The translations under genes were made by a program, and so were the position numbers. Under the pieces are notes generated by a model. It saw nothing but the letters and a program-made list of their open reading frames with translations, did not search any database and was not told the DNA's origin. A stretch of 64,000 nt of DNA from Halomonas sp. HAL1 (GTDB lineage: Bacteria > Pseudomonadota > Gammaproteobacteria > Pseudomonadales > Halomonadaceae): positions 3,844,001 through 3,908,000 of the forward strand of contig NZ_CP130610.1 in assembly GCF_030544485.1 (NCBI RefSeq). The letters run 5' to 3'. This document shows, in pieces, positions 27,970 through 64,000 of the stretch; position 1 is the stretch's first letter, and each line of letters begins with the position of its first letter.

Positions 27970-29265
27970 CTAATAAAGCAGTTGTGGCAAAAACAGCACG
28001 ATGCCTGGGAATATCAGCACGAGCACAGCGCGCAGTGTGCCTGCCACCCAGAAAGGCGTTACGCCCCGGAAAATTGTGCCGGTACTGACATCCGGCAGTA
28101 CCGCCCTCAGCACAAATACATTCATCCCCACTGGCGGTGTAATCAAACTAATCTCAATTACGATTACTACCAGTATGCCAAACCACACCAAATCATAGCC
28201 AAGCCCTGCCACGACCGGAAAGAACACAGGCACGGTAAGCAACATCATCGACATGCTTTCGAACACACACCCTAGCAGGACGTAAATTGCCAGGATGACG
28301 AGAATAACCACGAAGGGTGCCACGTTTAGCCCATTGACCAACGCTAGAAGATCATTGGGAAGCCCCGCTCGATTGATAAAGTTAGCAAAGATTAACGCCG
28401 TTAACACCACCGCAAACAGCATTGCAGTAGTACGCACTGTGTCCATAAGGACATTCATGAGTATGGACGGAGTTAAGGCACGCTTGAGCAGCGCAATTAC
28501 GAAAGCACCCATTGCGCCAATACCTGCCGCTTCAGTTGGGGTGAAGATACCCAAATAGATGCCGCCGATAACCAATACGAACAGTGCTAGGGTACTACCC
28601 ACATTTTTTAGGGCAGAAAAGCGCTCGCTCCAGGGTACTTTTTCGGCCGCTGGGCCAGCGCTGGGGTCACGCCATAGAACCCACTTAACCGCACCGAGGT
28701 ACATCACGATACCCAGCATGCCGGGAATGAAGCCGGCTGCAAATAGTTCACGGATGCTGGTTTCGGTGATAATACCGTAGATCACCAGCATCACGCTGGG
28801 AGGAATAAGTATCCCCAGGGTACCGCCCGCAGCAATAGATGCCGCAGCCAGTGAATCTTTATAACCATACTTGCGCATCTGTGGCATAGCCACACGCCCC
28901 ATCGTGGCACAAGTAGCCAAACTCGACCCACAAATAGCACTAAAGCCGCCACAAGCAACAATGGTCGCCATAGCCTGACCACCTTTACGATGTCCAAGAA
29001 AGCCATTGGACGCTCGGAATAGTGCATCCGATAGCCCAGCATGCGAAACCAAATTACCCATCAGAATAAACAGCGGGATCACCGATAATCCGTAATCCAT
29101 CGCGGTGTCTACCACTCGGCGTGACGCCATAGCTTCGGCTGCGTTCCAGTTACCAGTCAGGTAATAAAAACCGACAAACCCCACAATCCCCATAGCAAAT
29201 GCTAACGGCACACGCATGAAGACTAATATCAATAGGGCGGCAAACCCATACAGTGCTTCAATCAT
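27970..29265 (-). CDS. TRAP transporter large permease (DctM family)
   Basis: A 431-residue polytopic membrane protein with DctM landmarks: GTLGILIPPSVMLVIYGI, IFTPTEAAGIGAMGAF and ISLITPPVGMNVFVLRAV. It overlaps the dctQ gene by 8 nt and is the last gene of the operon, ahead of a strong terminator. The operon shares a motif with the marR/MBL promoter, which links it to the homogentisate cluster next door; an aryl acetate such as 3-hydroxyphenylacetate is a reasonable guess for the cargo. Confidence 0.92.
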   Translation of the reverse strand: MIEALYGFAALLILVFMRVPLAFAMGIVGFVGFYYLTGNWNAAEAMASRRVVDTAMDYGLSVIPLFILMGNLVSHAGLSDALFRASNGFLGHRKGGQAMATIVACGGFSAICGSSLATCATMGRVAMPQMRKYGYKDSLAAASIAAGGTLGILIPPSVMLVIYGIITETSIRELFAAGFIPGMLGIVMYLGAVKWVLWRDPSAGPAAEKVPWSERFSALKNVGSTLALFVLVIGGIYLGIFTPTEAAGIGAMGAFVIALLKRALTPSILMNVLMDTVRTTAMLFAVVLTALIFANFINRAGLPNDLLALVNGLNVAPFVVILVILAIYVLLGCVFESMSMMLLTVPVFFPVVAGLGYDLVWFGILVVIVIEISLITPPVGMNVFVLRAVLPDVSTGTIFRGVTPFWVAGTLRAVLVLIFPGIVLFLPQLLY

Positions 29266-29800
29266 TCTTTTCTCCCTGACTCACTGGACCACCACACTTG
29301 ATTACACCCACGCCCTCCAGCAGATAACTCAGTGCACGACCCAATGTGAGTAGAGCTGAGAGGAAAAGCATAATGGAGATTAAATAGATCAGGTAACCAT
29401 TCGGTATCCGCAGGAACTCAGTGACATCCCCCCATTCGAAAGCACGAACACCTAAAGCCCATACCCGACCAGCGATCACCCATAAAGTTATAGTGATGAC
29501 CAGATTGACGATCATCTGACGCAGCCATATCCAGCGCGCAGGGTAAATTGCATCAAGGAGATCAACACTAACGTGCTCTTCACGCCAGCAAGCTACTGGC
29601 AGCGAAAGGAACACAACGGCGGCCAGCATCTGTTGAGTCAACTCGACAGTTCCCAGGATAGGAAGATTAAAAAAATAGCGGCCTGCTACATCAGCAGTAG
29701 TCAGCAGCATCAAAGCAAAGAGGGTAGCACCCGCCACCCCCTCTAACCCAAGCTGCATGACCCTACCGACATTTGACCAGCGAATCGTCAGGGTCTGCAT
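29258..29800 (-). CDS. TRAP transporter small permease (DctQ family)
   Basis: A 180-residue membrane protein with about four hydrophobic segments and the DctQ pattern TADVAGRYFFNLPILGTVELTQQ (quoted in part). It sits between dctP and dctM in a P-Q-M order, unlike the Q-M-P order of the first TRAP operon in this window. It overlaps dctM by 8 nt. Confidence 0.88.
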   Translation of the reverse strand: MQTLTIRWSNVGRVMQLGLEGVAGATLFALMLLTTADVAGRYFFNLPILGTVELTQQMLAAVVFLSLPVACWREEHVSVDLLDAIYPARWIWLRQMIVNLVITITLWVIAGRVWALGVRAFEWGDVTEFLRIPNGYLIYLISIMLFLSALLTLGRALSYLLEGVGVIKCGGPVSQGEKND

Positions 29801-29833: not shown

Positions 29834-30889
29834 TTATGGAACCAGAGATGCCACACTTTCTTGTGCGGCAGCTTCTTCGAGCTGTTGGTGGAAGTATTCT
29901 AGGGCTGTTTCAGCGTCTACACCGCGCTCACTGACTTGCTCGGACCACGTTTCCACTAAGTTACTGCTAATGCCGCGCAACGTCTCAAGGTCGTCATCGC
30001 CAAGTGAAGTAAAGGTATGTCCCTGCTCTTCAGCGAACTCGACCCCCCGCTCATCAGAAACGTCCATCATGTAACCGAACAAGCGTGACAAGCGCTCACC
30101 GGAAACTTCTTCCACAGCGGCACGATCTTCTGCGGACATTTCATCCCAGATCATCGGATTGACCACGATAGTGAAGCTCCCACGATAGAATCCCCCATCA
30201 ACCGTTAAAGTATGAGGAAATATCTCGGCTACCCGAAAGCTTCTCAGGCCTTCTGGCACCAGCATAGCGCCGTCGATTACGCCTTGAGAACCAGCTTCAT
30301 AGACGCCGGTAGGGGGTAGAGCGACGCCCGTCAGATTTAGTGCGTTGGAAAGATCGCCCATCACCCCACCACCCACACGAATGCGTTCACTTTCGAGGTC
30401 AGCAAGAGTCTCATAATGCTCGCTACTAAAAATCCAACCTGGCCCATGCACACCTGCAGCTACGACATCAACGCCGCGGTGCTCATTAGCTTGCGCTAAA
30501 TACTCCTGATGGGTGTTCCAGTAGGCGGCAGACGCATTCTCTGAGGAGAAGTCTTCAAAGGTAGGGAATTCGGGTAACTGGGTGGCCAAAAAACGGCCAG
30601 CATTATAACCATGAAACACCCATGTGGCATCAGCGATGCCATCGGCGACCATCGCCATTTGCGAGGCGGGTGGCCCAAGATCATGCACAACTTCAACGGT
30701 CACGCGACCGTCAGTGGCTTCTTCAATCCAGCTTTTCCAGGTCGGCCACACCATCGTGTTAATACCATGGTTGGGGCCTGCCCATGTACTAACAGTAATC
30801 GTGGTTTGAGCCATGGCGGTCGTACTAATAGTGGCAGCCGCCACAGCACCTAACAAAAGAGTTTGCTTGGTTTTATTCATTATGCTCAT
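29834..30889 (-). CDS. TRAP transporter substrate-binding protein (DctP family)
   Basis: A 351-residue periplasmic binding protein with a Sec signal ending in TAMAQ. Its mature part starts ITVSTWAGPNHGINTMVWPTW. GGEGG-type RBS spacing (GGAGGTAAGAAA) precedes ATG 30889. It is strikingly similar, block by block, to the orphan DctP at 52619-53677 (shared PTFEDFSSE, EVSGERLSRLFGYMMDV), so the two are paralogues with related ligands. It is unrelated in detail to the DctP at 2613-3731. Confidence 0.92.
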   Translation of the reverse strand: MSIMNKTKQTLLLGAVAAATISTTAMAQTTITVSTWAGPNHGINTMVWPTWKSWIEEATDGRVTVEVVHDLGPPASQMAMVADGIADATWVFHGYNAGRFLATQLPEFPTFEDFSSENASAAYWNTHQEYLAQANEHRGVDVVAAGVHGPGWIFSSEHYETLADLESERIRVGGGVMGDLSNALNLTGVALPPTGVYEAGSQGVIDGAMLVPEGLRSFRVAEIFPHTLTVDGGFYRGSFTIVVNPMIWDEMSAEDRAAVEEVSGERLSRLFGYMMDVSDERGVEFAEEQGHTFTSLGDDDLETLRGISSNLVETWSEQVSERGVDAETALEYFHQQLEEAAAQESVASLVP

Positions 30890-33067: not shown

Positions 33068-33146
33068 CTATTAGCTTTCCAGGTTTTCCTGGAACATGAA
33101 ACGTTGCCGAAGCAGCGTTCTTCGGCAACGCAGTGGGAGCATCAAG

Positions 33147-35089: not shown

Positions 35090-36400
35090 ATGTTAAATGA
35101 AACACTTCACTATCAGAGTGGTTTTCGTAATCACTTCGCGACCGAAGCACTGCCCGGCGCTCTGCCGCAAGGACAGAACTCTCCACAACGCTGCGCTTAT
35201 GGACTATATGCCGAGCAGTACACCGGCTCGGCATTCACCGCACCTCGCCACCAGAACCTGCGTAGCTGGCTCTACCGTATTCGCCCATCGGTAGCGCAAA
35301 GCGCTTACCAACCGCTGCCGGATAAAGCAGTAGCGACTGCACCATTAGCCAAGCCCGCCGCTGACCCTAACCAGATGCGCTGGGACCCATTACCGCTACC
35401 GACTGAACCAACCGACTTCGTAGATGGCTTGCTGACCATTGCCGTTAATGGTGATGCGGGAAGTCAAACGGGTGTCGGAGTACATGTCTATGCATTTAAC
35501 CGCGACATGACCGAGCGATTTTTCTACAACGCCGACGGTGAACTGTTATTCGTACCGCAGCAGGGAACACTATTGTTACGTACCGAACTGGGCGAATTAG
35601 AAGTCGAGAACGGGGAAATAGCGGTGATCCCACGCGGCATTAAGTTTCAGGTCCACTTAAGCGATGGAGCAGAAGCTGCCCGTGGCTATATCTGCGAAAA
35701 CTACGGCAGCCCACTGGAACTCCCTGGGCTTGGCCCGATCGGTGCCAATGGTTTGGCTAATCCGCGCGATTTTTTGAGTCCCGTGGCTCGTTACGAGGAT
35801 CTTGAAGGCGACTACTCGCTTATCGCTAAATTCTCGGGACGCTTCTGGGAAACCAAGCTTGACCATTCACCTTTGGACGTTGTGGCATGGCACGGCAACT
35901 ATGCACCCTATAAATACAACTTAGCCCACTTCAATACTATCAACACAGTGAGCTTTGACCACCCGGATCCATCAATTTTTACTGTCCTAACCTCGGCGTC
36001 CGATACACCGGGAACGGCTAATCTTGATTTCGTTGTTTTCCCACCACGCTGGATGGTCGCCAACGACACGTTCCGCCCCCCCTACTTTCACCGCAATCTC
36101 ATGAGTGAATTTATGGGGCTGATACATGGCGAGTACGATGCCAAGGCAGAGGGCTTTCTACCCGGCGGCGCCAGCCTTCATAACAGCATGTCGCCCCACG
36201 GCCCAGATGCAGATACCTTCGACAAAGCCACTAATGCCGAACTATCTCCCCAGTATCTGGGCGCGACCATGGCGTTCATGTTTGAAAGTCGCTATGTCTA
36301 CCATCCGACAGAAGCGGCACTGAACGCCGATATTCGTCAACGCGACTACGTCGATGTGTGGTCAACCCTACGCTCCCACTTTGACCCAACCAAGCCGTGA
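35090..36400 (+). CDS. hmgA: Homogentisate 1,2-dioxygenase
   Basis: A 436-residue cupin-fold dioxygenase with the family start [19 protein letters not shown]. The iron-binding region is [20 protein letters not shown] followed by [19 protein letters not shown], which supplies the His, Glu and His ligands. It opens the ring of homogentisate to maleylacetoacetate. It lies 20 nt after mhaB and upstream of the fumarylacetoacetase and isomerase genes, completing the pathway to fumarate and acetoacetate. Confidence 0.96.
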
Positions 36401-36476
36401 ACTATAGTCGCGACATTATTTAGGGTGTGATCCCCTGTAGCGATTGTTTGCCCCTGACAAAAAGGATGGAACACAG

Positions 36477-37496
36477 ATGAAACTCGCCACTCTCAAGAAC
36501 GGCCGCGACGGAGAATTAATCGTCGTCTCGAAAGATTTGACCCGTGCCGTGCGTGCTTCTGGCATTGCAGCCACCTTACAGCAAGCCATCGAGAACTGGG
36601 ATGACTTCGCCCCTCAGCTAGAAACGATCTATAGCCAGCTCAATGATGGCAAGGCGGAAAAAGCCTTTGACCTGGATCAGAGCGCCCTCCACTCACCGTT
36701 GCCCCGCAGCTACCATTGGGCGGATGGATCTGCTTACCTCAACCACGTCAAGCTGGTGCGTCAGGCGCGTAATGCCGAAATGCCGGATACTTTCTGGACT
36801 GACCCCTTAATGTACCAGGGCGGCGGCGATCACTTCCTCGCGCCAACCGAAGACATTGAAGCAGTCAGTGAAGAACACGGCATCGATTTCGAAGGTGAAA
36901 TCGCCGTGATCACCGACGATGTACCCATGAATATCACTCCTGAACAGGCCGCGGGTCATATTAAGCTGGTCATGTTGGTCAACGACGTCAGCTTGCGAGG
37001 ATTGATCCCAGGAGAACTCGCTAAAGGCTTCGGTTTCTTCCAGGCTAAACCGGCCTCAAGCTTCTCGCCAATCTGCGTCACCCCTGATGAACTCGGCGAT
37101 GCTTGGCAGGAAGGCAAGGTGCATTTGCCACTCACCGTGCACCTGAACGGCGAAAAATTCGGCGAGCCGCAAGCTGGCCCTGACATGATCTTCAGCTTTC
37201 CACAACTGGTCGCTCACGCCGCTAAGACACGCTACTTAGGTGCTGGCGCTATCGTCGGCTCGGGCACAGTTTCCAACCCCGATCTGGACGGTGGCCCCGG
37301 AAAGCCGGTGGCTGAAGGCGGCGTGGGTTACAGCTGTCTCGCAGAAGTCAGGATGGTAGAAAAGATCTTGCACGATGAAATCAAGACTCCCTTTATGCGA
37401 TTTGGAGACCGAGTGCGCATCGAGATGTTCGACCGCGATGGCAACAACATATTTGGTACCATCGATCAGCAAGTCGTGAAGTACCAGCCCAAATAA
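36477..37496 (+). CDS. hmgB: Fumarylacetoacetate hydrolase
   Basis: A 339-residue FAH-family protein from ATG 36477 with AAAGGA upstream. Metal and catalytic motifs include DPLMYQGGGDHFLAP, the acidic EHGIDFEGEIAVIT and VMLVNDVSLRG, ending with GDRVRIEMFDRDG. It cleaves fumarylacetoacetate to fumarate and acetoacetate, the last step of homogentisate degradation. The gap from hmgA is about 75 nt with no terminator, so they are probably co-transcribed. Confidence 0.94.
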   Translation: MKLATLKNGRDGELIVVSKDLTRAVRASGIAATLQQAIENWDDFAPQLETIYSQLNDGKAEKAFDLDQSALHSPLPRSYHWADGSAYLNHVKLVRQARNAEMPDTFWTDPLMYQGGGDHFLAPTEDIEAVSEEHGIDFEGEIAVITDDVPMNITPEQAAGHIKLVMLVNDVSLRGLIPGELAKGFGFFQAKPASSFSPICVTPDELGDAWQEGKVHLPLTVHLNGEKFGEPQAGPDMIFSFPQLVAHAAKTRYLGAGAIVGSGTVSNPDLDGGPGKPVAEGGVGYSCLAEVRMVEKILHDEIKTPFMRFGDRVRIEMFDRDGNNIFGTIDQQVVKYQPK

Positions 37497-37517
37497 AGCC
37501 AACACAAGGAAGGCAAC

Positions 37518-38162
37518 ATGACGACGCTATACGGCTATTTCCGCTCGTCGGCTGCTTACCGAGTGCGGATCGCCTTAAACCTGAAAGGCCTGGACTACGA
37601 TCAGGTTCCGGTCAACCTGGTGAAAGGCGAGCAGCGTGGTGGCGAGCATCTGGCGCGCAACCCTCAGGGGATGGTGCCCAGCCTGGTACTGGATGACAAC
37701 TCAGTGGTTAACCAGTCGCTGGCGATCTGTGAGTATCTCGATGAGGTGCATCCCGAGCCCGCGCTGCTACCGGTTAACGCGTTAGCGCGCGCAAGAGTTC
37801 GTGCGCTTGCGCAGTCGGTAGCTTGCGAGATTCATCCACTCAATAACCTGCGGGTACTCAAGTATCTGGTCAGGGAGCTGGGGGTGGATGAGGCGGCGAA
37901 GTTAGCGTGGTATCGCCACTGGATTACCGAGGGCTTCGCAGCCCTGGAAGAAACGCTTGCTACTGACCCCAACAGCGGCGACTTTTGCCATGGCGACACC
38001 CCAACACTTGCGGATATCTGCCTGATTCCGCAGGTGTATAACGCAGAGCGCTTCGAGTGCGATTTGTCGGCCTACCCGACGATCCAGCGTATCGCTGCCC
38101 ACTGTCGGTCGCTGCCAGCCTTTGCAAAGGCCGCACCTGAGGCGCAGCCTGACGCCAGCTAA
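37518..38162 (+). CDS. maiA: Maleylacetoacetate isomerase (zeta-class GST)
   Basis: A 214-residue zeta-class glutathione transferase with the diagnostic SSAAYRVRIALNLKG (catalytic serines) and NPQGMVPSLVLDD near the glutathione site, then VNQSLAICEYLDE. It isomerises maleylacetoacetate to fumarylacetoacetate with glutathione. Position 21 nt after the hydrolase gene completes hmgA-hmgB-maiA (hmgC in Pseudomonas naming). Confidence 0.95.
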   Translation: MTTLYGYFRSSAAYRVRIALNLKGLDYDQVPVNLVKGEQRGGEHLARNPQGMVPSLVLDDNSVVNQSLAICEYLDEVHPEPALLPVNALARARVRALAQSVACEIHPLNNLRVLKYLVRELGVDEAAKLAWYRHWITEGFAALEETLATDPNSGDFCHGDTPTLADICLIPQVYNAERFECDLSAYPTIQRIAAHCRSLPAFAKAAPEAQPDAS

Positions 38163-50208: not shown

Positions 50209-50685
50209 TTAGCCACCTTTCACCGGCAGCCCCCGCTCCTCTTTCATACTGCGCAGTATAATTTCAGAGCGAACCTGGGTGACATTAGGATGAGGCAATA
50301 AATGATGATGAATAAAGTCCGAAAACTCAGTTAGATCCTTGGCGATAACGTGCAATACATAGTCTGCGTCCCCTGAGACTGAATATGCCTCACGCACCAT
50401 GGCGTGCTTCGTCAGTAACGTCACAAAATCATCATCCATGCTTTCACCATGAGCTTTCAGATTAACTCTGGTGATGGCACGTAACCCAAAGCCCAGGCTA
50501 GCGGCATCAAGCCGAGCCGAATACCCCTTAATCACACCTTCGGTTTCTAACCGCGCTTTGCGTCGGGAGCACTGAGAGGGAGACAGGCTGACACGCTCCC
50601 CCAATTCTGAATTAGTGAGGGCTGAGTTCTTTTGCAACTCTGATAAAATTGCAAGATCGTAACGATCCAAGGAGATCCCGTGCAT
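50209..50685 (-). CDS. Lrp/AsnC-family regulator, divergent from hpd
   Basis: A 158-residue regulator from ATG 50685 (GGAG seven bases upstream). The helix-turn-helix is LAILSELQKNSALTNSELGE and LSPSQCSRRKARLETEGVI. The RAM domain has REAYSVSGDADYVLHVIAKD. It faces hpd across 128 bp containing a perfect inverted repeat and precedes phhR in the same direction. It probably activates hpd in response to tyrosine or an aryl pyruvate. Confidence 0.92.
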   Translation of the reverse strand: MHGISLDRYDLAILSELQKNSALTNSELGERVSLSPSQCSRRKARLETEGVIKGYSARLDAASLGFGLRAITRVNLKAHGESMDDDFVTLLTKHAMVREAYSVSGDADYVLHVIAKDLTEFSDFIHHHLLPHPNVTQVRSEIILRSMKEERGLPVKGG

Positions 50686-50730
50686 ATAACGCTCCATTTG
50701 CACACAAGCTGTGTACCATTTGGCTGCATC

Positions 50731-50751
50731 TTAGGTTAGTTTGCAACCTAA
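50731..50751. promoter_or_regulatory. Inverted repeat in the lrp-hpd divergent promoter
   Basis: TTAGGTT (50731-50737) and AACCTAA (50745-50751) are perfect arms around a seven-base spacer. The 21-bp dyad lies about 60 bp upstream of hpd and 46 bp upstream of the lrp start, a natural position for control of both. Confidence 0.5.
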
Positions 50752-50813
50752 TTGCACCGTCTCTTCCCTATACTGAGTTGGTCGACCAACAAGACAATAA
50801 AGGAGAGACAGCG

Positions 50814-51920
50814 ATGGGACCTTTTCCTCATGACGCACCTAAAGAAACCATAAGCGATACAAACCCAGCAGGTACAGATGGCTTTGAATTTGTTGAATTT
50901 GCGCACCCTGAACCTGAAAAACTAGATAGCCTATTTAGGCAAATGGGTTTCGTCCCCGTTGCAAAACATCGTGACAAATCAATCACCGTTTATCGTCAAG
51001 GCGACATCAACTACCTTCTTAACAGTGAACCTAACTCCCATGCGTCAGCGTTTATCGAGGAACACGGCCCCTGTGCACCGGCAATGGCTTGGCGAGTCGT
51101 TGATGCTCAGCATGCCCTAAAACGCGCCGTCGACTTGGGGGCTGAAGAGTTCACAGGAAATAAATCAATCGATGCGCCTGCTGTTGTTGGCATTGGTGGC
51201 TCGCTGCTTTACTTTATTGATACTTACGGTGAAAAAGGCAGCTGTTACTCAAACGAATTTGAGTGGTTCGATGAGGTAGATCCTAATCCTAAGGGGTTTG
51301 GTTTTTACTATCTTGATCACCTGACTCATAACGTTATTCGCGGCAATATGGATACATGGTATAAGTTTTACCACGACACCTTTAACTTCTGCGAAATACG
51401 CTACTTTGATATCACCGGTAAAATGACAGGCCTTACCAGCCGTGCATTGACTTCTCCCGATGGTAAAATTCGCATACCCATTAACGAAAGTGCCGACGAT
51501 CACAGTCAGATTGAAGAGTACTTGCGCGAATATAACGGCGAAGGCATTCAGCATATCGCCATTGCCACAAACGACATCTACTCCGGCACTGACTTAATTG
51601 CTGATGCAGGGCTCGAATTTATGCCTGGCCCGCCGAGCATTTATTATGAAAAGTCGTTGGAGCGCGTAAAAGATCACCAGGAGCCTCTCGAGAAACTGCA
51701 AAACCGTGGCATTTTGATTGATGGCGAAGGTGTCGTGGGCGGTGGTGAGACCAGAATTTTGCTACAAATATTCTCAAAAACGGTAATAGGCCCCATCTTC
51801 TTCGAGTTTATTCAGCGTAAAGGCGATGATGGTTTTGGAGAAGGCAATTTTAAAGCACTTTTCGAGTCCATCGAAGAGGATCAAATAAACCGTGGCGTAT
51901 TGCAAAGCACCACTGAATAG
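50814..51920 (+). CDS. hpd: 4-hydroxyphenylpyruvate dioxygenase
   Basis: A 368-residue vicinal-oxygen-chelate dioxygenase from ATG 50814 with AAGGAG upstream; the open frame to 50649 is not used. The iron ligands are visible as His in DHLTHNVIRGN, His in EGIQHIAIAT and Glu in IFFEFIQRKGD, with the conserved GFGEGNFKALFESIE tail. It converts 4-hydroxyphenylpyruvate to homogentisate, feeding HmgA at 35 kb. A Rieske protein follows 48 nt downstream. Confidence 0.96.
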   Translation: MGPFPHDAPKETISDTNPAGTDGFEFVEFAHPEPEKLDSLFRQMGFVPVAKHRDKSITVYRQGDINYLLNSEPNSHASAFIEEHGPCAPAMAWRVVDAQHALKRAVDLGAEEFTGNKSIDAPAVVGIGGSLLYFIDTYGEKGSCYSNEFEWFDEVDPNPKGFGFYYLDHLTHNVIRGNMDTWYKFYHDTFNFCEIRYFDITGKMTGLTSRALTSPDGKIRIPINESADDHSQIEEYLREYNGEGIQHIAIATNDIYSGTDLIADAGLEFMPGPPSIYYEKSLERVKDHQEPLEKLQNRGILIDGEGVVGGGETRILLQIFSKTVIGPIFFEFIQRKGDDGFGEGNFKALFESIEEDQINRGVLQSTTE

Positions 51921-51968: not shown

Positions 51969-52346
51969 GTGTACGACGCTTGGCGTAACTATGTAAATGC
52001 CCCCCAAGAGGGGGCTATTGTTTGTCCTTCTAACGTTATACAAGAAGGCAACGCACACTGCATGGAAGTTATTAGTAACGGTGGTACTTTCCCTATCGTT
52101 GCAACGCGCATAAATGGTACTATTTATTGCTACGTTAATGCCTGCCCCCACCAATATTTACCTTTAAATTACCGGTCAAATGTTATCATTTCATCAGATG
52201 GGCATCATTTGCTATGCAGTGCGCATGGGGCAGCGTTTGACATTAAAACAGGCAACTGTTTAACAGCTGCCTTTGAAAAACTTGACGCAATACCAGTGCT
52301 TGAAGACCAAGAAGGAAGCGTATGCATCGGTTATAGTAAATCTTGA
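51969..52346 (+). CDS. Rieske-type 2Fe-2S ferredoxin
   Basis: A 125-residue protein starting at GTG 51969 (AAAAGGA upstream). The Rieske ligands are CPHQYLP and CSAHGAAFD (C-x-H and C-x2-H, with the first site reading C-P-H). It is a soluble electron-transfer protein with no signal peptide. It is co-transcribed with hpd and ends at a strong terminator. Hpd itself needs no ferredoxin, so the partner is uncertain. Confidence 0.88.
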   Translation: MYDAWRNYVNAPQEGAIVCPSNVIQEGNAHCMEVISNGGTFPIVATRINGTIYCYVNACPHQYLPLNYRSNVIISSDGHHLLCSAHGAAFDIKTGNCLTAAFEKLDAIPVLEDQEGSVCIGYSKS

Positions 52347-52618: not shown

Positions 52619-53677
52619 TCAGGCGTCAGGATCAAGCACCTCGTCGGCGCTCAGCCCCTCCTCGTCGCCCACTTCTTCAAGTTGTTCGAGGAAAAAGGCA
52701 CGGGCGGACTCGCCATCAATACCCTGCTCGCTGGCCACGGTCTCCCACTGCCCAGGCAAGTCCGCTGCCATCTGCTGGAAGCGCTCCATTTCCTCTTCGG
52801 GCAGATCGATGAAGGTGTTACCCTGCTGCTCAGCGAACTCAATGCCACGCTCATCTACCACATCCATCATATAGCCGAACAAGCGGGAAAGACGCTCACC
52901 CGAGACTTCCTCGATTGCCGCACGATCCTCTTCGGATAACGAGGCCCAGGTATCAGGGTTGATCACCAAGGAGAAACTGCCACGGTAGAAGCCGCCGGGC
53001 ATTTGGACGGTGTAAGGCAGTACCTCGGCTAGACGAAAGCTCTTAAGACCCTCAAGCGTCAGCATGGCACCGTCGATGACCCCCTGCGTGGCGGCTTCAT
53101 AAGTGCCGCCCGGGGGCAGTGCCACGCCGGTGAGCTCAAGCGAATTGGAGATGTCGGCCATGATCCCACCGCCGATGCGCACACGCTTGCCATCAAGGTC
53201 ATCAAGGCTATCAATTGATTCGTTCAGGTAGAGAGCTCCAGGACCATGCACCCCAACCCCAATCACCTCGACGCCGCGGTGCTCGCCGGCCTCGGCCAAG
53301 TACTCGTTATGGGTGCGCCAGTAGGCAACCGAGGCTGCCTCGGAAGAAAAGTCCTCGAAGGTGGGCAACTCCGGTAGCTTAGTCAGCTCGAAGCGCCCCG
53401 GCATTAGGCCATGAAATAGCCAAGTAACATCAGCCACCCCGTCGGCTACTAGTTCCATCTGGGCGTCGGGCGGGCCCATGTCATGGATTACATTAATAGT
53501 GACGCGGCCCTCGGTAGCCTCTTCCACCCAACTTCCCCAGGTCGGCCAAACGATGGTATTGACGCCATGGTTGGGACCTGCCCAAGTGCTAACCTGCAAT
53601 TCAGTGTCCGCCGCAACGCCTTGAAAAGCGCTAAAGGATAGCGCAGTGAGTGTCGTTAGTGTTGCCAGTTTCTTCAT
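52619..53677 (-). CDS. Orphan TRAP substrate-binding protein (DctP family) behind the P450 gene
   Basis: A 352-residue periplasmic protein with a Sec signal ending in QGVAAD. The mature part starts LQVSTWAGPNHGVNTIVWPTWG. It is a close paralogue of the DctP at 29834-30889, sharing PTFEDFSSE, PPGGTYEA-type ligand loops and EVSGERLSRLFGYMMDV. No DctQ or DctM gene is beside it. It lies about 90 nt downstream of the P450 gene in the same direction and probably hands its ligand to the DctQM pair at 28-29.8 kb (inference). Confidence 0.92.
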   Translation of the reverse strand: MKKLATLTTLTALSFSAFQGVAADTELQVSTWAGPNHGVNTIVWPTWGSWVEEATEGRVTINVIHDMGPPDAQMELVADGVADVTWLFHGLMPGRFELTKLPELPTFEDFSSEAASVAYWRTHNEYLAEAGEHRGVEVIGVGVHGPGALYLNESIDSLDDLDGKRVRIGGGIMADISNSLELTGVALPPGGTYEAATQGVIDGAMLTLEGLKSFRLAEVLPYTVQMPGGFYRGSFSLVINPDTWASLSEEDRAAIEEVSGERLSRLFGYMMDVVDERGIEFAEQQGNTFIDLPEEEMERFQQMAADLPGQWETVASEQGIDGESARAFFLEQLEEVGDEEGLSADEVLDPDA

Positions 53678-53765
53678 TGTTAGAATCCTCTATATTGTTG
53701 TTGACATCGTTGTTGTTCATATCAAGGTTGGTGTACGTTTTAAAGCGTCTTGTTTGTCATTGATA

Positions 53766-56105
53766 TTAGAGGGAGAGTACCAGGCGCTTACCCTTCGCAC
53801 GCGAGCAGCAAACCATCATACGATTATTAGCATCGCGCTCGACAAGACTGAGCACCAAGTCACGGTGATCAATGTGCCCCTCTGCCACCGCCACCTCGCA
53901 GGTACCGCATAGGCCTTCACAGCAATCACTAGGCACATCCACGCCAGCAGCCGTCAGCGCCTCAAGCAAAGTTTGATCATTGCCGACCTGTACTGTCAGG
54001 TCGGAATCCGCCAGTACTGCTTCAAAGCCATGCTCGTTCTCTGGATCAAGAATACTGGGGCGGGCGGAGAAATGCTCAATATGCAGCGTCCCCTCGGGCC
54101 AATTCACCGCTAACGCCTCAAGCACCTCAAGCATGCGTTCCGGGCCGCAGGAATAGACCTGCTCACCTGCGGATAGGCCGCTCAGGACGACCGGTAGATC
54201 AAGGCGACAGCCCTCGTCACCCGCATGGACGGTCAGTGCAGCTGCATGATCGCGCTCGACCCGCTCAAGAAAGCCCATAGTCCGCCGCCCGGCACCGCAA
54301 TAATGCAGCGCGTAAGGTTTCCCGAGCGCCTTGAGATGATCGGCCATGGCCAGGATCGGCGTAATACCGATACCGCCGGCAATTAGGGTATAGCGCGTTG
54401 CAGTTTCGTCTAAATGAAAATGGTTTTTGGGGCCAGCAATATGCAGGACATCACCGGGCTTGACCGTATCGTGGAAGTGTAACGAGCCACCGCGTCCCTC
54501 AGGCTCGCGCAGGATGGCGATGGATAGGCGGCTAGGATCATCGCGTGTACCGCACAGTGAGTAGCAACGGCGCCAATCGCCCGATACAAGCTCAATATGC
54601 GAGCCGGGAGACCAGTCGGGCAGCTCACGCCCATGAGGGTCGGCCAGGTCGATACGAATTACCGCCTCAGCTTCACGCTTCACCCCAGTGACCACCACCC
54701 GACGCAGGATGTCATCCTTAATAGGCGCTCCAATATGGAAATGCGTGGGATTTTCCAGCACCGAGCGGGTTCGCCGTTCAGGGTTCTGCGCAGGCTCCCA
54801 CTCTACCCATAGCGACGTGGGGCCACGGAAGGAGGTGTTGGGCAAATACTCGAATGCCTGTTCCTCGACTAGGTGTATATGCGGCAGACGACGAATAAAC
54901 TCATCGAGGATAACCCGCATTTCCAGCCGGGCGATGTTCTTGCCCATACATTGGTGGGCGCCATAGCCGAAAGTGAGATGCTCCGCCGCATTATGGCGGT
55001 AGATATCGAACTCATCAGGATTCTCGAAATGGCGCGGATCCCGATTAGCCGATGCTTGCACGATCAGTAGTTTACCGCCCTTGGGAATTTTCTCCCCGCC
55101 CACTTCGGTGTCAACAGTAGCCAGTCGACGCCAAGCAACGACCGAACCGGCGGCGCGCAAGCACTCTTCAATCGCACTGGGAATTAATGCGGGGTTCTCG
55201 CAAATATCGTTCCATGAGTCGCGATTCGATAGCAAGGTACGGAAAGCATTGGTAGTGGCGAAGGCAGTGGTCTCGTGTGCCGCCACCAGGATTGCCATCA
55301 TCATCGAGCGCAGATAACTCTCCGGTACGATGTCGGGACTCACTTCATGCATACGGATCGAATCGTACATCCAACCTTCACCAGTGGGATCGGCACGCAT
55401 ACGATCAAGGATACCTTGTGCCGTCTTCCAGAACTGGCCCACATCCTCGGCAATCTGCAACTGCTGTTCCGGGGATGGACGGCCCCAGGTGTTAAGGGTG
55501 TGAGCGACTGAGAACTTGCGAAGCTCCTGGGCATCTTCATTGGGTACGCCAAGGAAGCGCAGCGCAACAGTCATGGGAATTTCCCGAAACATTTCGCCTA
55601 CTAGATCGGCACGCCCCTTGTCGATGAATCGGTTCATATAGTCACGTACCAACTCACGTACCCAAACTTCGTGTTTTTCAAGATTCTCAGGTAAGAAGGC
55701 ATCCATCAGTAGACGGCGGCGCTCCATGTGATCCGGCTCATCCTCGTTAACCATGGTGCGGCGCATTGCGAAACCGTAGCTATCAAGGATTTTTGTCGCC
55801 GCTGGTGGGGCAGGAGTGAGCTTTTCCAACGCAATGGAGGGCGAGAAAGTATGGTTGTCGCGGAAGACCGCCTTCACGTCATCAAAACGACTCACGACCC
55901 AATAGCCAAGCTTGGGGCTGTAGAACACTGGCTCCTCTTCGCGGGACCAGCGCAGCGCCTCAGCAGGGTCAAGCTGATAAGGGGCATCGAAGGGATCGAA
56001 ATCGGCTGCGCCTGGGGAAACCGGACAACCGGTAGGTGAGACGGCTGCCTGATGAAAGGGACATCCACTTGCCCCAGGCGGGAGGTATTCCGTCGTTGAC
56101 GTCAT
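53766..56105 (-). CDS. Self-sufficient cytochrome P450 fused to an FMN/2Fe-2S reductase (CYP116B type)
   Basis: A 779-residue fusion from ATG 56105 (GGAG upstream). The P450 domain has the I-helix AAHETT (275-280), ExxR at 314-317 and heme-ligand Cys386 in FGYGAHQCMGKN. It is followed by a phthalate-dioxygenase-reductase-like part: RCYSL (513-517) for flavin, LIAGGIGITPI for NADPH and a C-terminal ferredoxin domain with CCEGLCGTCEV. Such enzymes hydroxylate or dealkylate aromatic compounds using NADPH alone; natural substrates are mostly unknown. Partnered here with an aryl-acid-type binding protein and a divergent IclR regulator, it may hydroxylate an aryl acetate on the way to homogentisate (inference). 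Confidence 0.93.
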   Translation of the reverse strand: MTSTTEYLPPGASGCPFHQAAVSPTGCPVSPGAADFDPFDAPYQLDPAEALRWSREEEPVFYSPKLGYWVVSRFDDVKAVFRDNHTFSPSIALEKLTPAPPAATKILDSYGFAMRRTMVNEDEPDHMERRRLLMDAFLPENLEKHEVWVRELVRDYMNRFIDKGRADLVGEMFREIPMTVALRFLGVPNEDAQELRKFSVAHTLNTWGRPSPEQQLQIAEDVGQFWKTAQGILDRMRADPTGEGWMYDSIRMHEVSPDIVPESYLRSMMMAILVAAHETTAFATTNAFRTLLSNRDSWNDICENPALIPSAIEECLRAAGSVVAWRRLATVDTEVGGEKIPKGGKLLIVQASANRDPRHFENPDEFDIYRHNAAEHLTFGYGAHQCMGKNIARLEMRVILDEFIRRLPHIHLVEEQAFEYLPNTSFRGPTSLWVEWEPAQNPERRTRSVLENPTHFHIGAPIKDDILRRVVVTGVKREAEAVIRIDLADPHGRELPDWSPGSHIELVSGDWRRCYSLCGTRDDPSRLSIAILREPEGRGGSLHFHDTVKPGDVLHIAGPKNHFHLDETATRYTLIAGGIGITPILAMADHLKALGKPYALHYCGAGRRTMGFLERVERDHAAALTVHAGDEGCRLDLPVVLSGLSAGEQVYSCGPERMLEVLEALAVNWPEGTLHIEHFSARPSILDPENEHGFEAVLADSDLTVQVGNDQTLLEALTAAGVDVPSDCCEGLCGTCEVAVAEGHIDHRDLVLSLVERDANNRMMVCCSRAKGKRLVLSL

Positions 56106-56249
56106 GTTGGGCTCCACGGAGTGCTTTTATTTACTTTTATCGCACACATTGCTTATAATAACGAACAAACGGAAAGGTAATCTGGTTTTACCAGCACGTC
56201 AAGGACTCCCCTTATCTACCTCCCTCGCAACCAGAAGGCCACACTACTG

Positions 56250-56927
56250 ATGTCCACGACCCTCCAGACTCTAGATCGCGGCCTTCGCGTCCTTGAGGTT
56301 GTTTCGGAGCATACCGACGGCATCACCATTGCCGAACTCTCTCTTCAGCTAGAAGTGCATCGCGCTATTGCCTATCGCATCGTCACCACCCTAGAGGCTC
56401 ATGGTCTGATAGCACGAACAACCGAAGGACTCATTCGTTTAGGCGCTGGGATGACATTACTCGCCTCTCGCTTCGAGCCTCAGTTACTCAGCGTAGCCCA
56501 GCCACTTCTTCGAGAGCTGGCTGGCGCGACAAGAGCGACGGCCTTCGTATCGGTCGCTCAGGCTGGAGAGTGTGTGGTGATCATGGTGGAAGAACCTAAC
56601 GAGGGGATGTTGCGGGTCGGCTATCGAGTAGGCAGCCGCCATCCACTAAACCTGGGGGCGGCGGGCATCGCTATCCTCTCTGGACGCCTTCCTAGTCAGA
56701 ATGATGATAAAGCCGTGCAGAAGGCAAGAGAGGACGGCTACAGCCTAACCCATGGCCAACTGCAGCGCGGTGCCGTTGGCGTGGCCAGCCCTATCTTATC
56801 CACCTCGTTTCGATCCTCTATCGAGGCTTGTGTGGGCGTAGTGGCCATGGAAGATCTAGATAAAGAGGCCGCGATCGCGGAAGTAAAAGCGTATGCCCAA
56901 CAAATCGCCGAGCTGATCAATCAATAA
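56250..56927 (+). CDS. IclR-family transcriptional regulator
   Basis: A 225-residue regulator. The N-terminal winged helix is QTLDRGLRVLEVVSEHTDGIT and LEVHRAIAYRIVTTLEAHGLI. The C-terminal IclR ligand domain contains GSRHPLNLGAAGIAIL and GAVGVASPIL. It faces the P450-dctP operon across about 145 bp and likely controls it in response to the P450 substrate or product. Confidence 0.9.
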   Translation: MSTTLQTLDRGLRVLEVVSEHTDGITIAELSLQLEVHRAIAYRIVTTLEAHGLIARTTEGLIRLGAGMTLLASRFEPQLLSVAQPLLRELAGATRATAFVSVAQAGECVVIMVEEPNEGMLRVGYRVGSRHPLNLGAAGIAILSGRLPSQNDDKAVQKAREDGYSLTHGQLQRGAVGVASPILSTSFRSSIEACVGVVAMEDLDKEAAIAEVKAYAQQIAELINQ

Positions 56928-57368: not shown

Positions 57369-58283
57369 ATGCATAGACATACTCGCTCATCGGGGGTATT
57401 TGATCGCTGGATCAGTGACGTTAACCAAATTTGCGGCCCTTTTTCAGCAAGACCTCTGGGAAAAGAGTTTTCTGGAAATATCCATAAAATGGGAGGCGGT
57501 GCCCTGGAAATGTCTCAGGTCACGATCTGTAGTGCTCAGCTTTATCGTGGTTTGGATGAGATACGCCGCTGTGTTACACCTGAGATTTTTTGTATTTTTC
57601 AGGTGCAAGGGAAATCCCGCGTTGAGCAGGCAGGAAACAGCTCTATACTCCTAGCAGGTGATATCGCTCTAGTGGACTCAGCACTTCCATTCTCCTTTAC
57701 CTATGATCGGGAATCCCAGCAAATATCGCTAATCCTGCCTCGCCCACTCGTCGAGCGCACTCTGAATCTTTCAGGCATTGAACTAGGTGTCCGCATTCCG
57801 TCCCACAGTCATATTGCCAGTTTTGCCAACCATTTGATCGCCGAGGCTGCCCATTATAACAACCTGGATACCGAAGAAAGCTCCGCTATTATTGATTCAC
57901 TGATTATGTTGTTAAAGCCTTCTGTCATCCGCAGCGTAGGTCAGCATAACCCTAATGAGAGAATTTTCTTGCAAGCAGCTTCTTTTATCAGGGAAAACAT
58001 TGGAGACCCAGCGTTAAGCCCTAAACTAGTAGCCAGTGCGACGGGAGCGTCAGTACGCAGCCTCTACCGGGCATTCGGCCTCCGTTCTATGACCGTTTCC
58101 GAGTACATTAAAACCCAACGACTGGAGATGTGTGCTGATTACCTCAAAACTTCGAGAAGCAAGCTGAACCTGACCGAGGCAGGATACCGTTTCGGTTTTG
58201 CCAGCCCCAGTGCGTTCTCAACGGCCTTCAAACAACACTTCGGCATTACCCCAACCAGTTATTGCCAGCACCACGTTTATTGA
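57369..58283 (+). CDS. feaR: FeaR-like AraC-family activator
   Basis: A 304-residue AraC-type regulator. The C-terminal helix-turn-helix pair is LSPKLVASATGASVRSLYRAF and LNLTEAGYRFGFASPSAFSTAF, with GITPTSY. The N-terminal half matches the cupin-like AraC ligand domain of FeaR. In enterobacteria FeaR activates tynA and feaB for aromatic amine use. Here the aldehyde dehydrogenase, a porin and tynA converge on it, which supports the name. The gene converges with the aldehyde dehydrogenase gene across a terminator. Confidence 0.78.
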   Translation: MHRHTRSSGVFDRWISDVNQICGPFSARPLGKEFSGNIHKMGGGALEMSQVTICSAQLYRGLDEIRRCVTPEIFCIFQVQGKSRVEQAGNSSILLAGDIALVDSALPFSFTYDRESQQISLILPRPLVERTLNLSGIELGVRIPSHSHIASFANHLIAEAAHYNNLDTEESSAIIDSLIMLLKPSVIRSVGQHNPNERIFLQAASFIRENIGDPALSPKLVASATGASVRSLYRAFGLRSMTVSEYIKTQRLEMCADYLKTSRSKLNLTEAGYRFGFASPSAFSTAFKQHFGITPTSYCQHHVY

Positions 58284-58287
58284 AACA

Positions 58288-58316
58288 GGTCTGCTAGGCA
58301 TTGCACCTGGCAGACC
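58288..58316. terminator. Bidirectional hairpin between feaR and the aldehyde dehydrogenase gene
   Basis: GGTCTGC-TAGG pairs with CCTG-GCAGACC over a short loop. It sits in the 58-bp gap between convergent genes and is a likely shared terminator without a long T run. Confidence 0.65.
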
Positions 58317-58341
58317 CTTGAGTGATTAGCTTACCGAGGCC

Positions 58342-59751
58342 TCATTTTTTAATGCTAATAACCCGAGGCTGAGTTACGGCCTTCAACCCTTCCATACCGA
58401 ACTCAACACCATATCCAGAAGCCTTGTTACCGCCGAATGGCACCATGGGATGAATCGCACCATGCTGGTTAACCCAGACAGTTCCAGCTTCCAGCTTCGA
58501 AGCAACCGACTCTGCCTGCTCTAGGCTGTCGGCCCAGACGGAGGCACCAAGGGCAGCCGGCAGATGGTTGGCAGAAGCGATGGCTTCGTCCAGACTTCCG
58601 TAACGAATGATGGGCAGGGCGGGACCGAATTGCTCCTCATCTACCAGCCTCTGGCCATCGCGGGCATTGCCCACCAGCGTCAGTGGTAGAAAGTAACCAG
58701 TCTCCGGAATATCGCCAAATTCCATGACATCGCAGCCATTGGCACGCGCGTCGGCTACTAATTCTTTCACTTTATTGTACTGCATCGTGTTCTGCAGAGG
58801 CCCGATCAAGTTGCTCTCGTCCATACCGTCGCCAATGGACACTTGGCTAGCAAAGTCGCTAAGCGCAGCAACCACTGAGTCATAGTCTTTCTCATGAACG
58901 TACAGGCGCTTGATACAGGCGCACGTTTGCCCTGCATTGAGGAAGGCACCCCAGAAAAGCCCTTCTGATATGGCACTGGCGTCCGTGCCTGGCATGATGA
59001 TCGCGGCATCATTGCCGCCGAGCTCAAGAGTAATAGGGGCGAGGTTTCTTGAGGACGCCTCAATAATACGCCGCCCTGTCGACTCGCTACCGGTGAACAT
59101 GATCTTATTAATATCAGGATGGCTCGTCAGTGCAGCACCAATACGACCATCTCCAGAAACGGTATTGAGTACGCCGGGAGGCAGTACTTGGTTAATCAGC
59201 CGAACCATCTCCAACGTTGCAATAGGTGTGTATTCAGAGGGTTTGAGCACCACTGTATTGCCCATACGAATGGCTGGAATAATCTGCCAGATAGCGATCA
59301 TCAGTGGCCAGTTCCAGGGCGCTATAGCGGCCACAACGCCCAGGGGACGGCGGTAAAGCACATCCTTACGCTCATCGTCCTCATATACCACTTCAGGCAG
59401 CAACTCCAGGGCAGTCGGGGCTTGAGTCCAGCCTACGCAGGCTTGCATTTCGAAGCGAGAACCGAGACCAGACAGAGGCTTACCCTGTTCCTGGGTAATC
59501 AGCCCCGACAAATATTCCGAGTTATCCTCCAGCACCTGGGCAACCCTCGCTACGACCTCCCGGCGCTCCTCGTCACTGACACTGGCCCAGGCATTCTGGG
59601 CCAGCCGAGCAGCGTCTACGGCGAGATTTACGTCGCGTTCACTATTAAGGGGCGCAAGCCCCAGGGAAACACCTGTGGCGGGGTTAAATATCTCCTGATG
59701 ATCGGCTGCTTCAGCCTGTTTACCGCTCACCGTGTTGTGATAGGTCTGCAT
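58342..59751 (-). CDS. Aldehyde dehydrogenase, probable (hydroxy)phenylacetaldehyde dehydrogenase
   Basis: A 469-residue NAD(P) aldehyde dehydrogenase from ATG 59751 (GAAGAG upstream). It shows the cofactor segment AIAPWNWPLMIAIWQIIPA, the catalytic glutamate in LELGGNDAAI and the catalytic cysteine in FLNAGQTCACIKR. The operon order amine oxidase, porin, aldehyde dehydrogenase makes it the probable second step, oxidising the aldehyde made by TynA to phenylacetate. It plays the role of FeaB/PadA, but the sequence alone does not prove orthology. Confidence 0.85.
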   Translation of the reverse strand: MQTYHNTVSGKQAEAADHQEIFNPATGVSLGLAPLNSERDVNLAVDAARLAQNAWASVSDEERREVVARVAQVLEDNSEYLSGLITQEQGKPLSGLGSRFEMQACVGWTQAPTALELLPEVVYEDDERKDVLYRRPLGVVAAIAPWNWPLMIAIWQIIPAIRMGNTVVLKPSEYTPIATLEMVRLINQVLPPGVLNTVSGDGRIGAALTSHPDINKIMFTGSESTGRRIIEASSRNLAPITLELGGNDAAIIMPGTDASAISEGLFWGAFLNAGQTCACIKRLYVHEKDYDSVVAALSDFASQVSIGDGMDESNLIGPLQNTMQYNKVKELVADARANGCDVMEFGDIPETGYFLPLTLVGNARDGQRLVDEEQFGPALPIIRYGSLDEAIASANHLPAALGASVWADSLEQAESVASKLEAGTVWVNQHGAIHPMVPFGGNKASGYGVEFGMEGLKAVTQPRVISIKK

Positions 59752-59856
59752 AATATTACTCTTCTGAAGATATGTTCGAGCTGTGAGCCAGATAACCGTC
59801 TGAGCACTCCACGACACAAGCCAGAGAGCTTAGGTCATGGGCTTAGCGGCGTTGAT

Positions 59857-61212
59857 TCAAAACGGCATAATCGCAATTATCTGAGCATAGGTACTGGTGT
59901 CATTACTGCCGATCTGGCTACCACCTTCAGCGGCACTTTTGTCCGGGTTATAAAACCCGACCACCGGGCTGATAATCAGATGTGGAGTTGCCACCCATTC
60001 GGCATAAAGATTTACTTCCTGAGCGTTCAGGCTTCCACTACCGCCCGCTGTGTCGCTGAAGTCGAAGAGGAGCGCGCCAACACTGAGGGTCTCCGATGGC
60101 GTTGCCTTAAGGCCAAGATGATGCACATCCGTACCGGAGTTGAAAGGCCCCGCATAGTTGGCCGCAACTTCACCCTGAAACCAGGTGCCATAGCCACGAT
60201 TGAAGCCAAAAAACAGTGGGTCGAAGCCTTGATCAAAGCTTGAGAACCTGTAGTTGATACTGGGTGACCAAGGAACGTCGCTGAAGGTCCACCCTGCTTC
60301 GGCGTACCATGCATTAGCGTCATTTCCGGAACTGTCCCCCGGTTTCTGGGTAACAAATTCCGCGGACAGGAAAAAGTCCTCCACACCAGCATTGCCCTGA
60401 TAGCGGAAGCTTGTCGTTTGCTGCCCATCCCGTGAGCTGTAACCGGTGAGGGGTGCAAAGGTATCGTCTACATCAAGACCCTCCATATACGTCAGACCAA
60501 AGGTGCCCTTCTGGCTAACGTACTCGGCATTGACCCCTGCCAGCTCCATCTCTGCCTGGGCCCGATTGTCGGACGACAGCCAGAACAGATCTGCACGCAG
60601 CCCATCGGAGCCGCCAATACGCGCAATGGCAGTTTGATCAAAGGCCTTGCGCGCTGCGAGCCAGTACGCACCACCCCGATCAAAGTCCAGGCCAGGAGCA
60701 CTAAGTGCATCGCCAAAATTTAGTGCATCGTCATTGATGAGGAAGCCATCACCGATGGTGAACGGTTGCCGCCCTATGGAAATATCGAGACCATCATCAC
60801 CAAGCACCGGAATCAGCCTGCCTGAACGCCAACCGACATAGGCATCTTCCAGTTCAGTTTCGCGCTCATTGCCTGAGGTGACCCCCCCCGCGTCGCCATC
60901 ACCCCAAGTTCCTGACGTCACCAGGTTGACGGCACCGTACAATCCGCTGCCCGCGCCCATAGCTTGGCTTCCAGAAAGCCCATACTTGATATAACCCTCT
61001 TGCCACTTGGCATCGCCAGCTTCGGACTTGGCACCCAGGCTGTAACTCTCCTCACTGTAAAAAACGCCTAAAACAGCCTCGATATCGACATTAAGTTCAG
61101 TGCTGTCTTTTTCATAAACGTTGAAAGCCAGAGAAGGCGTGGAGAATGCCGCTATCGCCGTAACGGCACTGACTAGCCCCGCCATACGCTGAATAAAGGA
61201 TTTTGTTCTCAT
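59857..61212 (-). CDS. Outer-membrane porin-like beta-barrel protein
   Basis: A 451-residue protein from ATG 61212 (AGGAAG upstream) with a signal peptide ending in PSLA. Alternating-residue strands fill the sequence, and it ends in phenylalanine (IIAIMPF), the outer-membrane barrel signal. It does not match OprD closely by eye; an alginate-export-like or DUF-type porin is possible. Placed between tynA and the aldehyde dehydrogenase, it likely admits aromatic amines into the periplasm, where TynA works. Confidence 0.75.
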   Translation of the reverse strand: MRTKSFIQRMAGLVSAVTAIAAFSTPSLAFNVYEKDSTELNVDIEAVLGVFYSEESYSLGAKSEAGDAKWQEGYIKYGLSGSQAMGAGSGLYGAVNLVTSGTWGDGDAGGVTSGNERETELEDAYVGWRSGRLIPVLGDDGLDISIGRQPFTIGDGFLINDDALNFGDALSAPGLDFDRGGAYWLAARKAFDQTAIARIGGSDGLRADLFWLSSDNRAQAEMELAGVNAEYVSQKGTFGLTYMEGLDVDDTFAPLTGYSSRDGQQTTSFRYQGNAGVEDFFLSAEFVTQKPGDSSGNDANAWYAEAGWTFSDVPWSPSINYRFSSFDQGFDPLFFGFNRGYGTWFQGEVAANYAGPFNSGTDVHHLGLKATPSETLSVGALLFDFSDTAGGSGSLNAQEVNLYAEWVATPHLIISPVVGFYNPDKSAAEGGSQIGSNDTSTYAQIIAIMPF

Positions 61213-61281
61213 TAGTATCACTTCCTAGAGATCCGATTGGTGACCAGGCATTTCTGCCTGGCCAGGCTTTACCTAGTTCGA

Positions 61282-63558: not shown

Positions 63559-64000
63559 GATCACTCCTGACAATGGTTCCAATGTTAGATGAAGGTTCGG
63601 TACTGTTACGATACCGATAGCCGAGCGGCTGCCATGTTAGAGAGCGCCTCCAACCAAGTTTTGATAAGAATAGAAATATCAGTTTAGAAGCCCATGGACT
63701 TTTGATTTGGTGCCAGTCCTTTGTGGAAACGTGCCATGCAGAGGAAAAGCGATATATTTCGATTACAAATGGGAACTAAACCGGAAGATTAAGGAAAGCT
63801 TAAAAAGAAATTTATTGAATACTACGCTGTAAATTACGCCATCTCATGCCACTACGGACATAGCGTCAAGCTGCTACTAGTCGCCTAAAAAACTGCCGAT
63901 ATGTGCAGTCATATCTAAACGCTGCCCTGAATACAGTTCGTTAGAACACAATTGCACATTTGCCTTATGTCCAACGAGAGCGGTTTTAAGTTGGGAAAGG
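63559..64000. promoter_or_regulatory. tynA upstream region with candidate FeaR sites
   Basis: No gene is seen in these 442 bp. TGCCA occurs at 63711 and again at 63732, 21 bp apart in the same orientation, typical of AraC-family half-sites on one face of the helix. The second reads TGCCA, eight bases, AAA (63732-63747), which fits the FeaR motif TGNCA-N8-AAA as I remember it from E. coli work. The sites lie 150-190 bp upstream of tynA. Confidence 0.5.

Follow-up and report, generated by a model that had tools for sequence, protein, structure and literature searches.

A probable 2-hydroxyphenylacetate module in Halomonas sp. HAL1, an ohp-like system with a TRAP binding protein and a distant IclR-type regulator

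The ohp system and its probable counterpart in Halomonas

In Cupriavidus pinatubonensis JMP134, OhpA, a CYP116B-type fusion of a cytochrome P450 with its reductase, 5-hydroxylates 2-hydroxyphenylacetate (2-HPA) to homogentisate (PMC8449657). The gene is encoded with ohpT, for a binding protein of the TctC/Bug type, and with the divergent ohpR, for an IclR-type regulator; a JMP134 mutant fails to grow on 2-HPA, P. putida given the gene can use the compound for growth, and the ohp promoter is raised by 2-HPA only, among the aromatics tested (PMC8449657). Two further self-sufficient enzymes, CYP116B234 of Rhodococcus globerulus and CYP116B305, convert 2-HPA to homogentisate in vitro, and the word 'transporter' is absent from the accessible text of the papers describing them (PMC11889516, PMC12126322). 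Here we analysed a stretch of 64,000 nucleotides from Halomonas sp. HAL1 (contig NZ_CP130610.1, positions 3,844,001 to 3,908,000; this whole stretch is called the window), in which a CYP116B-type fusion is followed by a gene for a TRAP solute-binding protein of the DctP family and faces a divergent IclR-type gene.

We consider it probable that these three genes form a 2-HPA module, namely an ohp system in which the binding protein and the regulator have been replaced by unrelated or distant counterparts, because the OhpA literature shows the same gene set and the same reaction. By analogy, the P450 would be a 2-HPA 5-hydroxylase giving homogentisate. The likeness to ohpR-ohpT-ohpA extends to the CYP116B fusion, a binding protein in the operon, the divergent IclR gene and a product that enters the homogentisate pathway, and the JMP134 layout is also found in C. 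metallidurans CH34 (locus L163). A preliminary description of this stretch had called the module unexplained and the natural substrates of CYP116B enzymes largely unassigned; the layout in fact matches the ohp system (PMC8449657), and the statement on substrates has been outdated since 2021. Its other observations held, with the fusion, the downstream DctP gene and the divergent IclR gene all present as described; we measure 88 nt (53678-53765) instead of 90 nt between the P450 stop and the DctP start, and 144 nt between the P450 ATG and the IclR gene. The proposed 5-hydroxylation of an aryl acetate to homogentisate is also the reaction performed by OhpA in JMP134 and by CYP116B234 and CYP116B305 in vitro, and may be carried over to this P450 by analogy. 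The chemistry and the module are already known, and the transport and regulatory parts are new: judged from sequence, the binding protein is a TRAP DctP instead of the TctC/Bug protein OhpT of the TTT family, and the regulator belongs to a distant IclR subgroup. The gene order also differs, being ohpT-ohpA in JMP134 and P450-dctP here. If correct, this identification gives a likely natural substrate of halophile CYP116B enzymes together with a transport route.

Upon examining the fusion, we found that its longest open reading frame (ORF) starts at a GTG (53766-56117, minus strand, GTG at 56117, 783 amino acids); the ATG at 56105, which is preceded by GGAG, is the likelier start, and a database copy of the protein (P0001) likewise has 779 amino acids. 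The protein matches the Pfam families P450 and Fer2 and has the class VII self-sufficient architecture, in which a single chain joins a P450 to a phthalate-dioxygenase-reductase-like domain with sites for flavin mononucleotide (FMN), NAD(P) and a 2Fe-2S cluster. The reductase, of the phthalate-dioxygenase type, includes a ferredoxin domain, and NCBIfam places it with the PaaE/BenC type at scores under those families' own cut-offs. The fused PDB chains 6kbh and 6laa align along the full length (residues 16-783), and the reductase 2pia aligns to residues 465-783. Furthermore, the haem-thiolate signature FGYG(A/S)HQCMG reads FGYGAHQCMG here (residues 383-392), with 8 of its 10 columns invariant across 17 aligned relatives.

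Next, we compared 11 pocket positions, namely five tier residues named for CYP116B234 and six docking residues named for CYP116B305 (PMC11889516, PMC12126322). These were mapped by eye from the 6laa alignment, in a numbering that agrees with the CYP116B46 residues named in the papers, and CYP116B305 positions were transferred by a constant offset of 10, as seen in residues that its paper equates. The four positions that separate CYP116B46 from CYP116B234 carry the CYP116B234 letters here (A96, T210, W211 and S325), and V326 is the same in both enzymes. The docking residues agree except for M122, at a position described as variable with methionine common. The window P450 agrees with CYP116B234 at its mapped residues and differs from CYP116B305 at some of them; overall, the 11 mapped positions are compatible with the 2-HPA-hydroxylating relatives.

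The preliminary description had also allowed hydroxylation of an aryl acetate at the ortho position; for phenylacetate this finds no support: JMP134 does not route phenylacetate through homogentisate (PMC8449657), CYP116B305 binds it approximately 100 times more weakly than 2-HPA (39 versus 0.4 uM; PMC11889516, PMC12126322), and the window holds coenzyme A-dependent paa genes.

Recurrence of the gene set and its control region

We investigated the neighbourhoods of P450 relatives in a collection of genomes from 84,980 species. A relative is encoded in 569 stretches, of which we retained the 80 best, a choice that biases the sample towards near relatives. Transporters were tallied within 2.5 kb, an earlier same-strand tally within 1.5 kb having missed divergent TctC genes; neighbour families were assigned by BLAST to reference ORFs with representatives checked by Pfam, and greedy longest-ORF annotation was abandoned, since in GC-rich loci genes were masked by shadow ORFs. 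The conserved neighbourhood that the preliminary description expected does exist and is not strain-specific, with the order IclR-P450-DctP in 24 of the 80 loci, all in Halomonadaceae. An orphan DctP of the window's family lies near the P450 in 25 loci; in L059, DctP comes before the P450. A DctP-DctQ-DctM set of another DctP subfamily was found in 11/80 loci, TctC in 16/80, an MFS carrier in 3/80 and an NMT1 binding protein in 1/80; a DctP-like match in L091, a long-branch stray in the trees, was left out of this tally. Across bacteria, the same P450 stands beside uptake proteins of four unrelated families (TRAP, TTT, MFS and NMT1-type), suggesting that it pays a cell to take up 2-HPA.

In 68/80 loci, and likewise in the window, the P450 has an IclR-family gene no more than 1.5 kb away, and these genes fall into two groups separated by a very long branch, of the kind about which the tree tool warns. 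The CH34 regulator belongs to the other subgroup than that of the window, a comparison made with the CH34 and not the JMP134 sequence; at 1e-6, the window IclR has no match in CH34, while reference IclRs of the other group do match. The P450 is shared and the binding protein and regulator are non-orthologous, so the same functional set seems, from sequence comparison, to have been assembled more than once.

Among Halomonadaceae, the P450s accompanied by the orphan DctP form two distant clades, A (17 rows) and B (12 rows), which are approximately 62% identical, and a third lineage, in Modicisalibacter, comes with a TRAP system of its own. In the trees, the IclR and DctP genes from clades A and B nevertheless intermingle. 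In an approximately unbiased test, a single clade of the A rows was rejected for IclR (p-value 0.00017) and not for DctP (p-value 0.085), so the case for exchange rests mainly on IclR and on the distance between the P450s. The pattern looks like an in-place exchange of the P450 between two distant lineages, inside a gene frame that was retained, suggesting that both enzymes do the same job.

Upstream of the P450, 28 of 29 Halomonadaceae loci carry TTGACN, a spacer of approximately 17 nt and TAYNTT, followed by two similar 16-mers. The loci were chosen by a pattern allowing a spacer of 15-19 nt, three species occur twice so that 26 are distinct, and L032 was unreadable since its ORF call starts too early. 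In the window, the second operator-like copy, TGTGCGATAAAAGTAA, has one exact occurrence, as in the whole genome. A site just downstream of the -10 suits a repressor, and we regard it as the candidate site of IclR binding. A wider IclR regulon is unsupported, with three genome matches at no more than one mismatch to the degenerate pattern (control 1), namely the P450 site, 3966347 (in a stretch with transposase-like ORFs) and 2972614. The window has, besides the exact site, two matches with three mismatches, at 11095 and 12324 (0.46 expected in all); the latter (12324-12339) lies in the gap between ORFs 9993-12197 (minus strand) and 12569-13183 (plus strand), at the edge of the paa genes, and may be due to chance.

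The orphan binding protein and its candidate permease

The orphan DctP matches Pfam DctP at 83.7 bits (cut-off 23.4) and has no TctC match in the Pfam search, and for these reasons it is not filed as OhpT. Neither a DctQ nor a DctM ORF adjoins it, as had been noted before, its neighbours being the P450 and a convergent Rieske gene. Its highest structural scores are to 7nra, 7nr2, 7nqg, 5i7i and 4p56, that is, TarP and EFI aromatic-acid TRAP binding proteins of the same fold, mostly aromatic-acid binders and several with aromatic acid ligands, at 19-32% identity; TarP is, by the title of its paper, part of TarPQM, in contrast to the orphan gene of the window. Of the 32 Pfam DctP matches in the genome (31 above the cut-off), only DctP2, which belongs to the DctPQM operon beside hmgA, is a close paralogue (59% over 345 amino acids, 61% in a second comparison), while the next DctP is at 28%; the preliminary description was right about this likeness.

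We then examined 250 Halomonadaceae genomes, of which 40, including this one, carry a full-length OhpA. Four of the 40 (G116, G150, G156 and G171) have DctPb-DctQ-DctM next to the P450, and the window DctM is found in none of these, where the best match is their own ohp-linked DctM (46-48%). Across the remaining 36 genomes, the orphan DctP is present at 73-100% identity in 34; in G211 the copy is cut at a contig end, and the contig of G267 stops 167 nt past the P450. The window DctM was detected at no less than 90% identity in 31/36 of these genomes, whose ohp has no permease of its own, under a uniform limit, and in 33/36 when two copies cut at contig edges are counted (G106, 94%; G259, 92%). 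G172, G192 and G267 have no DctM piece at 90% even at looser limits, and there the dctP paralogue runs toward a contig end, so these three count neither as carriers nor as counterexamples. In the 210 ohp-negative genomes the same DctM occurs in 23 (uniform limit; contig-end pieces were re-searched only for the five missing ohp genomes), giving a Fisher p-value of 1.1e-19 (31/36 versus 23/210, uncorrected for relatedness). Additionally, in Aquisalimonas lutea (L059), outside Halomonadaceae, DctP2-DctQ-DctM lies directly beside IclR, DctP and P450.

The DctQM at 28-29.8 kb, proposed earlier as the route of delivery, stands as the best-supported candidate given paralogy, co-occurrence and locus L059; the delivery itself, with the orphan DctP working through a DctQM encoded approximately 23 kb away, is what we infer from them. 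Among the 54 genomes with this DctM, DctP paralogues outnumber DctM copies in 45, equal them in 8 and are fewer in 1, and 14 of the 23 ohp-negative genomes have the surplus (copies counted at the E-value limits of the searches; contig ends can hide some). Halomonadaceae DctPs linked to ohp group together in a single clade (100/99), and those linked to the permease fall outside it. A second orphan DctP type adjoins Lrp and indolepyruvate oxidoreductase genes (L138 3441-4496, L136 4374-5429, L143 13241-14296), with other genes between in L137. We lean slightly towards a model in which one Halomonadaceae DctQM is served by several interchangeable binding proteins, namely DctP2, the ohp DctP and, in some strains, the Lrp/indolepyruvate-linked copy, each encoded with its own peripheral enzyme. 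If this is true, a new aromatic acid could be added by one binding protein and one hydroxylase with no new transporter, the general view that each TRAP permease has a single binding protein would have to be revised, and this genome, with two such proteins, is a clean test case. Orphan TTT and TRAP binding proteins have been mentioned in general terms (PMC5812351, PMC12344293), and in the open-access literature, judged by title and start of abstract, we found no description of ohp with TRAP, of 2-HPA in Halomonas, or of TRAP with orphan or several binding proteins.

In the proposed mechanism, the orphan DctP would capture 2-HPA outside the inner membrane and pass it to the DctQM shared with DctP2. 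The fusion, drawing electrons from NAD(P)H via the FMN and 2Fe-2S domains that it carries, would hydroxylate 2-HPA at C5 as its orthologues do, and HmgA, MaiA and FahA, whose genes are present, would cleave homogentisate to fumarate and acetoacetate by the established pathway. The divergent IclR may bind the conserved twin sites just downstream of the -10 and presumably represses until 2-HPA is present.

Several observations weigh against this account. No recognised transporter stands beside the P450 in 17/80 loci (a contig end intervenes in a further 7/80), and in 12/80, of which 4 sit at a contig end, there is no IclR gene within 1.5 kb. The ligand of 4p56, the best structural match, is cut off in its title, and we take it to be mandelate. 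The pocket comparison covers the named residues only, out of a full list of 18 positions, and two of the electron-shuttle residues named for CYP116B46 differ, its Arg718 and Glu729 being Thr722 and Cys733 here. A consensus scan did not list the operon promoter, which is too far from consensus, and its promoter-like sites were not above shuffles (3 versus 4.2), so the case for the promoter rests on conservation. Relatedness and a shared aromatic lifestyle both confound the link between ohp and DctQM across genomes, the DctM also occurs without ohp in the 23 genomes above, and in some genomes (G213, G243) the two loci are far apart. We found no biochemistry on this strain.

The P450 could be a 2-HPA 5-hydroxylase with an orphan DctP that uses another permease, or none, serving in sensing or scavenging. 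The 32 DctP matches and several other DctM-like genes leave room for this, and a TRAP binding protein usually has its permease encoded alongside it (PMC12344293); we find it rather unlikely, since DctP2 is the sole close paralogue (61% versus 28%), the next DctM is at 44%, and presence and absence over the 250 genomes fit a shared permease. That the module acts on another ortho-hydroxylated aryl acid, such as 3-(2-hydroxyphenyl)propionate (HPPA), with 2-HPA secondary, appears improbable. HPPA and 2-HPA are equally tight ligands of CYP116B305, CYP116B234 reportedly binds HPPA the more tightly of the two, and both enzymes hydroxylate it, yet the coupling of CYP116B234 is 86% with 2-HPA against 4% with HPPA (PMC11889516, PMC12126322), JMP134 genetics show growth on 2-HPA (PMC8449657), and HmgA acts on homogentisate, which is not what HPPA yields. 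A broad oxidase of alkanes or xenobiotics with incidental neighbours, as the alkane activity reported for CYP116B5 (cited in the CYP116B papers) might suggest, is hardly credible given that IclR and transporter neighbours recur in distant bacteria, the region also contains the hmg genes and the mapped pocket positions agree with 2-HPA enzymes.

Coordinates and neighbouring genes

The homogentisate genes (35090..38162) lie approximately 15 kb from the 2-HPA module, and 4-hydroxyphenylpyruvate dioxygenase (HPPD) is a second source of homogentisate in the window (Table 1).

Table 1. Positions of the module, its control region and related genes in the window
Feature	Positions	Strand	Remarks
ohpA-like CYP116B P450-reductase fusion	53766..56105	-	779 aa from ATG at 56105
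Orphan DctP-family solute-binding protein (TRAP), predicted to bind aromatic acids	52619..53677	-	352 aa
IclR-type regulator, divergent; functional counterpart of ohpR	56250..56927	+	225 aa; other IclR subgroup
Conserved promoter of the P450-DctP operon	56174..56202	-	TTGACG (56202-56197), 17 nt, TACCTT (56179-56174)
Two operator-like copies, candidate IclR site	56131..56167	-	56167-56152 and 56146-56131; 21 nt from start to start; immediately downstream of -10
DctM, large permease protein and candidate partner for the orphan DctP	27970..29265	-	NCBIfam dctM 320.9 bits; co-occurrence
DctQ	29258..29800	-	by position between DctP and DctM; no NCBIfam match
DctP2, closest paralogue of the orphan DctP	29834..30889	-	59-61% identity
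hmgA	35090-36400	+	homogentisate ring cleavage
Fumarylacetoacetate hydrolase family gene	36444-37496	+	family matches weak and under the cut-off
maiA	37518-38162	+	homogentisate ring cleavage
HPPD	50649..51920	+	NCBIfam 4HPPD 390 bits; ORF includes N-terminal extension

Cysteine at the second shuttle position of the fusion (Cys733) is also found in the aligned relatives P0002, P0004 and P0016. After the DctP gene, a short ORF of approximately 165 amino acids (L053, 13578-14075) recurs in many Billgrantia and Halomonas loci. Directly after HPPD, and convergent with the orphan DctP, lies a small Rieske-type ferredoxin gene (51969-52346). Between the TRAP operon and hmgA (31293-34868) there are a MarR gene, a metallo-hydrolase-like ORF and a flavin-dependent (FAD) monooxygenase of the PRK08132 family, a candidate for hydroxylating another hydroxyphenylacetate. 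On the other side of the module, a FeaR-like regulator, an aldehyde dehydrogenase, a porin-like ORF and a copper amine oxidase (57369-63582) make up a putative set for converting aryl-ethylamines to aryl acetates; parts or relatives of it are also near ohp in L042, L038 and L059, so 2-hydroxyphenylethylamine could feed the P450. Finally, a sodium-dependent (SNF-type) transporter gene at 46825-48285 is split into two ORFs here and is one long ORF in relatives (e.g. L136 1797-3257), and is a broken copy in this strain.
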